This document shows positions 40,783-45,003 of a stretch of DNA of 50,386 bases, one piece after another (the first letter of the stretch is position 1; each line of letters begins with the position of its first letter). A program made the position numbers and the translations under genes. This DNA comes from Candidatus Saccharimonadota bacterium (GTDB lineage Bacteria > Patescibacteriota > Saccharimonadia > Saccharimonadales > Saccharimonadaceae). Below the pieces are notes generated by a model, which worked only from the letters and a program-made list of their open reading frames with translations, had not been told where the DNA came from and did no database searches. The DNA is taken from contig JAUSMW010000036.1 in the NCBI GenBank assembly GCA_030645815.1, positions 1-50,386 on the forward strand, given 5' to 3'.

Positions 40783-43668
40783 ATGCAAAGGTATGAACCT
40801 CTAGCCATTGAAAAGAAATGGCAAAAAAAATGGGATGATGACGGCACGTACGTCGTTGATTTTAATGACCATTCCAAGCCAAAATATTATGGCATGAGTA
40901 TGTTGCCAGGCATAACGGGCGCAGGTATACATATTGGTCATGGGCGGACGTTTCAGTTTAGTGACATCAAGGTTCGCGCTAAACGACAACAAGGCTTTAA
41001 CGCCTATAATCCAATCGGCTGGGATAGCTTTGGTTTGCCGGTTGAGAATTACGCAATCAAAGTCGGTAAAAAACCTCGTATCGCTCATGATGAAGCCAAA
41101 GAGAATTTCAAAACGCAGCTAAAACGACTAGGCTATAGCTATGACTGGACAAAAGAAATTAGTACTGCTGACCCGGAATATTACAAATGGACACAGTGGA
41201 TTTTTAATAAATTATATGAACATGGTTTAGCCTATCAAAAAGAAAGCTCTCAGTGGTGGTGTGAAACAGACCAGACAGTACTAGCAAATGAACAGGTAGA
41301 AGGCGGCAAGTGTTGGCGTTGTGGCAATCCAGTGACAAAGAAAAACCTCAAACAATGGTTTTTCAAAATTACCGAATATGCAGATGAAATTCTAGAAGCC
41401 ACAGATGATTTGAATTGGACAGAAATGGTCAAAACTATGCAAAAGAATTGGATTGGCAAATCTCAGGGGGCTGAAGTTGACTTTCAAATTGTTGATTCAA
41501 GCGAAACAGTAAAAGTCTTTACAACTAGGGCCGACACTTTATTTGGCTCAACATTCCTCGTTCTAGCACCGGAAAATGAGCTAGTTAACAAAATCACAAC
41601 TGCAGAAAATAAATCAAATGTTGATGAGTATATTAAAACCACATTAGCCAAAAGTGAAATTGAACGCCAAGAAAACAAAGAAAAAACTGGTGTCTTTAGC
41701 GGTAGTTACGCTATCAACCCAGTTAATGGCGAAAATATTCCAGTTTGGATTGCTGACTATGTATTAACAGGCTATGGCACAGGCGCAATTATGGCGGTAC
41801 CGGCACACGATGAACGTGACAATGCATTTGCCCAAAAATTCGATATTCCAATCCGTTACGTGATTGAACCAACTGCAGGTACAGCCCAGGGTGATGATAC
41901 ACATAAAAAGTCTGTCTTTATTGCGTTGCGTAACCCAAAGACAAACAAGGTCATCGTGTTGGATTGGGGTCCTCGCCAAGCGCGAACTGGTGGTCAAATG
42001 CTAATTGGCGGTGGCGTCGAGGGCGACGAGGATTTTGTAGCAACTGCAACTCGTGAAATTACCGAGGAAACTGGCTATAAAAATTTTGAACTGGTCAAAG
42101 AGTCAGAGTTTTTAGGACATGGTTATTTTTATTCGAATACAAAGAACAAAAACATGCATGTATCCGGCAAAGGACTACTATTTGATTTAGTAGACGAAGA
42201 AAAAACAGACACAAATCTAGATGATGGCGAGCAAGGAAAGTTTACAGTTACCTGGCAGCCGATAAGTGCTATCGCCAATATGTTAGATGACGGCATACAC
42301 GAGGCCATGTATCGACACCTTGTATTAAAAGAATGTTATAACGGCGAAGGCGTTTTGGTGAATTCTGGACAATTTGATGGCATGACAACTGAACAAGCTC
42401 GCGAAGAAATTGTTGGGTGGCTAGAGCAGCAAAAACTTGGTAACACCAAAGTTCAATACAAGATGCGTGACTGGTTGATATCTCGTCAACGTTATTGGGG
42501 TGCACCGATTCCTATTGTGTATTGTGAAGCCGATGGCACTGTACCTATTCCAGATACTGATTTGCCAGTGATTTTGCCTGATGTTGATGACTACAAACCA
42601 ACTGGAGGAAATACATCAGTTCTGGCGGGTGTTGAGGAATGGGTTAATACAACATGTCCAAAATGTGGCGGTCCAGCAAAGCGAGAAACGGATACTATGG
42701 ATGGTTACGCATGCAGCAGCTGGTATTTCTTACGCTACCTCGACCCTTTCAATGAAAATGAAGCCTGGAACCCTGAACAAATTAAACACTGGGCACCTGT
42801 TGATTTTTATAACGGCGCAGACCACGCAGTCGCTCATCTGTTATATGCACGTTTTTGGATGAGATTTTTCTACAAACTTAGGCTAGTCGGTGACCCAGAA
42901 CCATTCAAACGCATGATGTATAACTCGTACATAATGGCACCAGATGGTCGCAAGATGAGTAAGAGCTTGGGTAACGTGATTGATCCGATGGAAATAATGG
43001 ACAGTGGCTATGGGGCTGATAGTTTGCGTGTCTACGAAATGTTCATTGCACCGTACGACATGGATGCTCCGTGGGACCCTCGAGGCGTGCCAGGTACGTA
43101 CAGATTCCTTAACCGTACTTGGAATCTAGTCCAAGAGTACTTGAATAATGAGCCTGCTGTATTGGATGACAAACAATCAGCTGAAATATTGAAGGTTGCA
43201 CACAAAACAAGCAAAAAGGTTACGGACGATATCGAAAATGACAAATTTAACACTGCAGTCTCGGCAATGATGGAGGCAGTTAATAATTACTTTAAATTAA
43301 AAGAATCTGCTGGAATCGGCAAAAATGATACATGGCTACTTGCAATTGAAAGCCTGTTGCAGGTGCTGGCGCCGTTTGCCCCACACATTACCGAAGAGCT
43401 GTGGTCACAATTGGGGCGCGACAAAACTATTCACATCGATAATTGGCCACAGTGGGATGAACAGTACCTCGTCAGCGATATAGTCACAATTCCCGTGCAG
43501 ATTAACGGCAAAGTTCGCGCCACACTCACTGTCACAGTTGATATATCCGAAAGTGATGTTATCGAACAGGCCAAGTCACATGAAAAAGTAGTCCCATATC
43601 TAGAAGGCAAGGAACTGAAAAAAGCCATTTATGTCAGTGGTCGTATAGTAAACCTAGTAGTTGTCTAG
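40783..43668 (+). CDS. leuS: Leucyl-tRNA synthetase with Nudix domain inserted in the CP1 editing domain
   Basis: HIGH motif (HIGHGRTFQ), KMSKS (GRKMSKSLGNV), editing motif GTGAIMAVPAHDERD, GVLVNSGQFDGM; Nudix box GGVEGDEDFVATATREITEETGY between them. Confidence 0.96.
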   Translation: MQRYEPLAIEKKWQKKWDDDGTYVVDFNDHSKPKYYGMSMLPGITGAGIHIGHGRTFQFSDIKVRAKRQQGFNAYNPIGWDSFGLPVENYAIKVGKKPRIAHDEAKENFKTQLKRLGYSYDWTKEISTADPEYYKWTQWIFNKLYEHGLAYQKESSQWWCETDQTVLANEQVEGGKCWRCGNPVTKKNLKQWFFKITEYADEILEATDDLNWTEMVKTMQKNWIGKSQGAEVDFQIVDSSETVKVFTTRADTLFGSTFLVLAPENELVNKITTAENKSNVDEYIKTTLAKSEIERQENKEKTGVFSGSYAINPVNGENIPVWIADYVLTGYGTGAIMAVPAHDERDNAFAQKFDIPIRYVIEPTAGTAQGDDTHKKSVFIALRNPKTNKVIVLDWGPRQARTGGQMLIGGGVEGDEDFVATATREITEETGYKNFELVKESEFLGHGYFYSNTKNKNMHVSGKGLLFDLVDEEKTDTNLDDGEQGKFTVTWQPISAIANMLDDGIHEAMYRHLVLKECYNGEGVLVNSGQFDGMTTEQAREEIVGWLEQQKLGNTKVQYKMRDWLISRQRYWGAPIPIVYCEADGTVPIPDTDLPVILPDVDDYKPTGGNTSVLAGVEEWVNTTCPKCGGPAKRETDTMDGYACSSWYFLRYLDPFNENEAWNPEQIKHWAPVDFYNGADHAVAHLLYARFWMRFFYKLRLVGDPEPFKRMMYNSYIMAPDGRKMSKSLGNVIDPMEIMDSGYGADSLRVYEMFIAPYDMDAPWDPRGVPGTYRFLNRTWNLVQEYLNNEPAVLDDKQSAEILKVAHKTSKKVTDDIENDKFNTAVSAMMEAVNNYFKLKESAGIGKNDTWLLAIESLLQVLAPFAPHITEELWSQLGRDKTIHIDNWPQWDEQYLVSDIVTIPVQINGKVRATLTVTVDISESDVIEQAKSHEKVVPYLEGKELKKAIYVSGRIVNLVVV

Positions 43669-44041: not shown

Positions 44042-44491
44042 GTGGCATCAAACCGTCATCTTGGTCGCATAATCGCACTGCAAACTCTGTACGAGGTTGA
44101 TTTTCGATTGAGTTGCGAAGACAAGGCTGTAACGTTAGATGAAGTCTATGACCGCAACCTAGGTAGGTACGAAAAGACCGTCAAAGACAAAGCTTTTGTA
44201 AAACGCCTAGTCTATGGTGTACACAAAAAGCGTGATGACTTGGACAAGTTGATACAACCAATTGCGCCCGAATGGCCTCTGTCGCAAATCGCCAGAGTTG
44301 ATTTAGAGATATTGAGACTGGCGCTATACGAACTCACCGAGATGGATGATGTTGCACCACCAAAGGTTGTTATCAATGAAGCGGTAGAACTAGCCAAAGC
44401 ATTTGGCTCTGATAATTCATCTAGATTTATCAACGGTGTTCTAGGAACCGCTTATCGAACGCTGATTTCCGAGGAAGAGAAGAAGAAATGA
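44042..44491 (+). CDS. nusB: Transcription antitermination factor NusB
   Basis: GRIIALQTLYEVDF, LSQIARVDLEILRLALYEL, VINEAVELAKAFGSDNSSRFINGVLG. Confidence 0.92.
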   Translation: MASNRHLGRIIALQTLYEVDFRLSCEDKAVTLDEVYDRNLGRYEKTVKDKAFVKRLVYGVHKKRDDLDKLIQPIAPEWPLSQIARVDLEILRLALYELTEMDDVAPPKVVINEAVELAKAFGSDNSSRFINGVLGTAYRTLISEEEKKK

Positions 44492-45003
44492 ATGAAAAAA
44501 AAGATGACAAGTCAAAATTAGGCGACCGAGTAAAGAAATATTTTAGCCGATCACGCGCGTCTATACAGGAGCTTGTGCGTGAACCAACCGCTGGTGGAAT
44601 AGTGTATCGTCAAAATGCAAACAACGAGGTAGAAATACTGTTGATTCAAGACTCCAAAGATCGTTGGACCATACCAAAAGGCCATATCGAAGAAGGTGAA
44701 ACAGCTCAAGAAACAGCCAAGCGCGAAATCGCCGAAGAAGCGGGTTTAAAAGATACTGAGGTTTTAGGGTGGTTGGGCAAGATACATTTTCGCTACCGTC
44801 GTGTGAACACCCTCGTGTTGATGACGACCCAGATTTACCTTGTCAAAGCAAAAGGTGACACAAATGCAATTAAAAAAGAAGAATGGATGAATGGCATACA
44901 ATGGTTCTCATTTGGTGAAGCATTAGATAAAATAGAATACGAAGATATCGGAAAATTGATGCTACTCGCTAGCAAGCGTATACGCCAAGGTGGCAAAAAA
45001 TGA
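44488..45003 (+). CDS. Nudix hydrolase
   Basis: Nudix box GHIEEGETAQETAKREIAEEAGL. ATGA overlaps at both ends. Confidence 0.92.
   Translation: MNEKKDDKSKLGDRVKKYFSRSRASIQELVREPTAGGIVYRQNANNEVEILLIQDSKDRWTIPKGHIEEGETAQETAKREIAEEAGLKDTEVLGWLGKIHFRYRRVNTLVLMTTQIYLVKAKGDTNAIKKEEWMNGIQWFSFGEALDKIEYEDIGKLMLLASKRIRQGGKK

Follow-up and report, generated by a model that had tools for sequence, protein, structure and literature searches.

The leucyl-tRNA synthetase of the window

Why would a leucyl-tRNA synthetase (LeuRS) of a Candidatus Saccharimonadota bacterium carry a second complete enzyme domain inside the CP1 domain, with which it edits its own products? The gene in question, leuS, lies on the forward strand (as do all of its features described below) at 40783..43668 of the 50,386-nucleotide contig JAUSMW010000036.1, here called the window, and encodes a 961-aa bacterial-type LeuRS with an inserted Nudix domain, as assigned by TIGR00396 and AlphaFold. 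TIGR00396 matched the ORF with 952.7 bits against a curated cut-off of 548.4, identifying it as bacterial LeuRS, and the coding region is one open frame with zero internal stops.

An alignment of 45 LeuRS was used to examine the signature motifs. The results showed that: (i) in the HIGH motif (residues 50–53; 40930..40941), residues 50 and 52 are invariant and residue 53 nearly so, (ii) in the threonine-rich editing motif TTRADT (residues 247–252; 41521..41538), T247, T248, D251, and T252 are invariant, (iii) the same holds for D343, R345, and D346 of the editing-site motif VPAHDERD (residues 339–346; 41797..41820), and (iv) in the KMSKS motif (residues 724–728; 42952..42966), S726 and K727 are invariant, with K724 and M725 nearly so. 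The alignment and the profile score thus bear out the initial annotation, which had described an unbroken gene with intact HIGH, KMSKS, and editing motifs. The AlphaFold model of the whole protein had a pLDDT of 91.0 and a pTM of 0.79, and its top fold matches were all LeuRS. The profile search found no second LeuRS in this genome, the remaining matches being other class I synthetases; as the sole LeuRS of its genome, the window protein is presumably active in aminoacylation and editing.

Place, fold, and active site of the insert

The insert occupies residues 363–514 (41869..42324), a position that we call site B, and lies about 17 residues past the editing Asp loop. Bacterial LeuRS (TIGR00396; Thermus 1H3N/2BTE, E. 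coli 4AQ7) and the window protein share the catalytic, editing, anticodon, and C-terminal parts and all signature motifs. In the alignment with Thermus LeuRS, however, the window protein has about 150 residues (from 363 to 515 of its own numbering) between Thermus residues 364 and 373, where the Thermus enzyme has an 8-residue linker. Both the extra length and the shortness of the Thermus linker had been stated in the initial annotation. Well-characterized LeuRS lack the insertion.

Profile and fold matches placed a NUDIX domain (PF00293) at residues 374–502 (41902..42288). The PF00293 match reached 39.2 bits (E = 8.8e-10) on the full protein and 43.6 bits (E = 3.8e-11) on the isolated insert, the gathering cut-off being 21.1. 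The Nudix box GX5EX7REUXEEXGU is matched exactly by residues 410–432, GGVEGDEDFVATATREITEETGY, at 42010..42078, the very coordinates at which the initial annotation had seen a perfect box. An AlphaFold model of the isolated insert had a mean pLDDT of 90.3, and its best PDB matches in Foldseek were all Nudix enzymes (2AZW at E = 1.6e-10), so that the modeling proposed by the initial annotation confirmed its central claim of a complete Nudix domain within the CP1 editing domain. Judged from sequence and structural models, the insert is a genuine Nudix fold whose predicted active site is intact, and the LeuRS that hosts it looks functional.

Nudix hydrolases such as 2AZW, E. coli RppH, and the Aquifex Ap4A hydrolase (PF00293) share the box and the fold with the insert and are its best structural matches, but are just 14–21% identical to it. 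Unlike them, the window insert resides in a synthetase and carries two signature residues, Trp395 (41965..41967), found in 92% of the main inserted group and 0 of 13 standalone proteins, and Lys454 (42142..42144), found in 99% and 3 of 13, respectively. The NCBIfam subfamilies gave no substrate for the insert; RppH alone appeared, below threshold, the window protein scoring 22.4 bits with the curated RppH model NF001938 (cut-off 116).

Distribution of the inserted Nudix type

We searched 344 Patescibacteria genomes with a profile of the inserts. There were 52 matches of at least 80 bits (80–242), 51 of them in ORFs of 647–1795 aa, the exception being an ORF of 187 aa, and the next 17 matches, with 73 bits or less, were all in ORFs of 140–212 aa. 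This clean split of scores between long and short ORFs indicates that the inserted Nudix type is distinct from standalone Nudix proteins. Long-ORF copies occurred in 50 of the 344 genomes, and the long ORFs that we read encoded LeuRS, except for one ValRS (L161) and one IleRS (L249). The survey of Patescibacteria suggested by the initial annotation thus revealed a recurrent insertion and ruled out a one-off fusion.

When TIGR00396 was searched in 163 Patescibacteria genomes, ORFs of at least 900 aa accounted for 30 of the 142 LeuRS among the matches listed. Outside Patescibacteria, the Nudix type also occurs in a small number of LeuRS: it was found in 5 of 194 genomes in the phylum of a Pacearchaeota record (DPANN) and in 8 of 198 genomes of a Bacilli class, in both cases exclusively in ORFs of 937–1160 aa. 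The distance between the junctions, measured in relatives and named genomes, was bimodal, mostly 11–50 or about 140–190 residues. In the nearest LeuRS (L019/L099, same genus), with 88% core identity, the site is empty and bridged by the linker VIDGGQDELH.

A free-standing, 187-aa Nudix protein of the inserted type (145 bits) is encoded at L250:1565–2125, between TatD DNase and HD-domain genes; it may be either a source of the inserted type or an escapee from it.

Kinship with other Nudix proteins

Trees of Nudix domains were built with 13 standalone proteins in one and 9 in another. The inserted copies clustered, except for a small set (L009, L089, L097, and L098) and the doubtful L170, and the window copy fell within supported sets that consisted of inserted copies only (bootstrap/SH-aLRT 99/87, 98/88, and 99/89). 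A single clade for the main inserted set was not rejected by the AU test (p = 0.44), the extra set and L170 being placed elsewhere or doubtfully. Nested among the site-B copies were Nudix domains from LeuRS site A (residue ~240), from the IleRS L160, whose insert is 45% identical to that of the window, and from the ValRS L161; this nesting means that the module has passed from one site to another and from one synthetase to another. The comparisons of sequences show a putative Nudix subfamily that is found almost only within class Ia synthetases of Patescibacteria.

The window holds a second, free-standing Nudix gene at 44488–45003, which overlaps the ends of nusB and rnc. A standalone or neighboring Nudix gene was ruled out as the general source of the inserts, since the inserted copies form their own group and the 44488–45003 gene lies outside it.

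Gain, loss, and replacement of the insert

To compare the history of the insert with that of its host, identities of core and insert were determined for 72 LeuRS with Nudix at site B (2556 pairs). The two were uncorrelated (Spearman −0.03), a value that is descriptive because the pairs are not independent; the argument is carried by tree counts and sharp contrasts. For example, L009 and L010 share 83% of the core and 19% of the insert, and the window protein and L088 share 75% and 30%, whereas L102 and L118, with the same core identity of 75%, have inserts that are 78% identical. Identity falls at both insert junctions and rises again outside them. The tree of LeuRS cores requires a minimum of 36 changes in insert presence; supported branches force 31 of these, and coding six insert types gave 47 changes. 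Among the 13 LeuRS of the clade that includes the window protein (support 100), there are four Nudix types, several empty sites, and ASCH at another site (L074).

The lack of correlation and the 36 presence changes rule out vertical inheritance from one ancestral insertion. A uniformly fast-evolving insert was also ruled out, since pairs with similar cores have insert identities of either ~20–30% or ~70–80%. The uncoupling of core and insert identity means that the domain behaves as an exchangeable cassette: LeuRS have acquired it, lost it, and received a completely different copy on many occasions, with little change in the surrounding protein.

Selection and catalytic residues

In the only two pairs with unsaturated synonymous sites, dN/dS was 0.013 and 0.042 for the insert and 0.029 and 0.125 for the core; these estimates show strong purifying selection on the insert while it is retained. 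All 77 inserted copies have the first Gly of the Nudix box and the first Glu of REUXEE, and each of the next two Glu is found in 76. Together with the low dN/dS, the conservation of these metal-ligand residues favors the earlier suggestion that the insert may be an active Nudix enzyme. E7 and R15 of the box are each found in 65 of the 77 copies. A subgroup of eight site-B copies (including L010, L011, L014, L017, L027, and L094) mostly has Gln in place of E7 and has lost R15 while keeping the EE pair, and catalysis in these proteins could be altered or lost.

Other enzyme domains in class Ia synthetases

Other LeuRS carry further domains. At site A, we found an alpha/beta domain (Ser_hydrolase), ASCH, or Nudix with HAM1, and at site B, besides Nudix alone, Nudix with HAD, a nucleotidyltransferase, or a module of ~110 residues. 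When the alpha/beta hydrolase insert was searched in 240 genomes, the best 14 matches were all in ORFs of 867–1191 aa. A LeuRS of 1795 aa (L248:1177–6561) combines HAD, HAM1, Nudix, and nucleotidyltransferase domains. The ~110-residue module, which has a PGFWNE-like motif, recurs in L169 and L177 (LeuRS site B) and L121 (site A). At site A of the L132 LeuRS, the stretch ahead of the alpha/beta hydrolase resembles a translated short repeat (VIPAKAGIQ...SGMT).

Among 140 sampled IleRS, about 23 have ORFs of 1124–1480 aa that are split at one fixed place. In all 19 long IleRS that were read (L210–L228, from 19 Patescibacteria genomes), the inserted stretch was histidine phosphatase-like, and PF00300 was confirmed in six of six scanned, two of which have it in tandem and one of which additionally has GNAT. 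Another IleRS (L249:1641–6272) contains Ser_hydrolase, Nudix, and His_Phos, and His_Phos is also present in ValRS, twice in L251:875–4708 and once in L254:526–3504. The alternative inserts are for the most part small hydrolase or transferase families. As a control, AlaRS had two ORFs of at least 1000 aa among approximately 120, the usual length being 570–700; the two long frames are G061:C1 (1000 aa) and G132:C11 (1013 aa).

By sequence, then, the window LeuRS belongs to a wider pattern in which members of several enzyme families are inserted, recurrently and exchangeably, into LeuRS, IleRS, and ValRS. The picture of a single LeuRS–Nudix fusion given by the initial annotation was correct in that the fusion is real and too narrow in that several enzyme families are found in three synthetases.

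Possible function of the insert

We are nearly certain of the observed part of our interpretation, namely that a complete Nudix domain sits in CP1 at a fixed junction, belongs to a synthetase-resident subfamily, and is often gained, lost, or replaced, with purifying selection while it is kept. The whole interpretation, which adds that the domain is a tethered, active hydrolase of adenylate-type ligands, is our preferred one, held tentatively and at a little less than even probability. According to it, the insert would fold on its own as a catalytically active, metal-dependent pyrophosphohydrolase and would leave aminoacylation and editing intact. Tethered to the synthetase, it would act on adenylate-type ligands that arise at LeuRS or are directed against it, the candidates being stray aminoacyl-adenylate, ApnA by-products, and aminoacyl-nucleotide inhibitors, and such a hydrolase cassette might thereby clear or detoxify nucleotide ligands. 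No substrate signature was identified in the insert, so that its action on synthetase-related nucleotides is an inference. The exchange of the cassette for other hydrolase or transferase domains would be accounted for by chemical challenges that change.

That the insert families are so diverse is compatible, too, with enzymes that are merely parked in a tolerant loop. Tolerant CP1 loops may house small accessory enzymes, which are expressed and retained since the host gene is essential and need no link to aminoacylation. This is the main rival of the tethered hydrolase, and we consider it rather unlikely. It agrees with the occurrence, at several sites, of numerous enzyme families that are unrelated to one another, with the same-genus relative that lacks the insert and shows no visible damage, and with the agreement in third-position GC between insert and core (r = 0.90). 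It does not account well for the inserted Nudix being a synthetase-resident lineage with its own signature residues and not a series of captures of the sampled standalone Nudix genes, or for insertions being far commoner in class Ia synthetases than in AlaRS.

A broader proposal, which we likewise hold to be rather doubtful, is that fixed junctions in Patescibacteria LeuRS, IleRS, and ValRS form a socket system for catalytic cassettes that can replace one another (Nudix, histidine phosphatase, alpha/beta hydrolase, ASCH, HAD, HAM1, nucleotidyltransferase, and GNAT), which would be swapped between lineages and synthetases and provide the translation machinery with a changing in-cis chemical defense or housecleaning.

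In a narrower form of the tethered-hydrolase explanation, the inserts would be dedicated resistance cassettes, i.e. changing in-cis enzymes that detoxify nucleotide antibiotics targeting synthetases. Microcin C is inactivated by GNAT acetylation (MccE), by a peptidase (MccF), and by phosphoramide hydrolysis by HIT proteins (PMC7157772), and agrocin 84 has LeuRS as its target (PMC5059758). The resistance reading is attractive because the insert chemistries resemble these routes of microcin C inactivation and because agrocin 84 targets LeuRS, and a domain that is often replaced, yet strongly constrained between replacements, would suit a resistance gene. The enzyme families concerned are, however, very common, and we regard such a dedicated role as improbable.

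It is quite improbable that the domain is an editing or tRNA-contacting module, whose main role would be to modulate the movement of CP1 or the handling of the tRNA 3′ end, with catalysis secondary or lost. Its position ~17 residues beyond the editing Asp loop and the degenerate Nudix box of one subgroup would suit such a module, but the metal-binding Glu is nearly invariant, and the presence of the same Nudix subfamily at two LeuRS sites, in IleRS, and in ValRS argues against a site-specific structural role.

Finally, although the window comes from a draft genome that is broken into 270 contigs and has 6% contamination, an assembly or binning artefact is highly improbable, since insert and core share one open frame and nearly the same GC (0.433 vs 0.425; third position, 0.395 vs 0.390) and the same architecture is found in dozens of independent genomes, among them single-contig genomes with Nudix at the same LeuRS junction (G016, G024, G030, and G035). 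Misassembly, which the initial annotation had named as an alternative, is thereby excluded as a general cause. The base composition of insert and core gave no sign of recent foreign origin.

Relation to known systems and significance

At least one class Ia synthetase with an added enzyme domain has been catalogued before, IleRS with GNAT (NF040702, ileS_w_GNAT), which differs in both the domain and the synthetase; against its cut-off of 1999 bits, the window LeuRS scored 58.4 and the 1477-aa IleRS L160 scored 238. Lineage-specific inserts of RNA polymerase are likewise variable domains within an essential information-processing enzyme. These are described as recurrent polymerase insert domain types (BEAN/HABAS; PMC11515920), whereas the domains swapped at a fixed junction in the synthetases are whole enzymes whose active sites are conserved. 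Searches of the open-access literature gave no paper that describes Nudix in LeuRS, histidine phosphatase in IleRS, or exchangeable synthetase inserts, and nothing relevant on synthetase inserts of CPR or Saccharibacteria; the novelty of the finding is accordingly provisional.

Synthetases belong to the most highly conserved enzymes, and a 2026 survey of domain insertions classified the LeuRS editing domain as an insertion-exclusive module with zero host events (PMC13114784). The repeated hosting of complete enzymes by this domain contradicts that classification. The insert junctions are natural, evolution-tested insertion points that are useful for enzyme engineering, and the turnover of the inserts raises the question of which chemistry is needed beside the Leu, Ile, and Val synthetases in bacteria with very small genomes.
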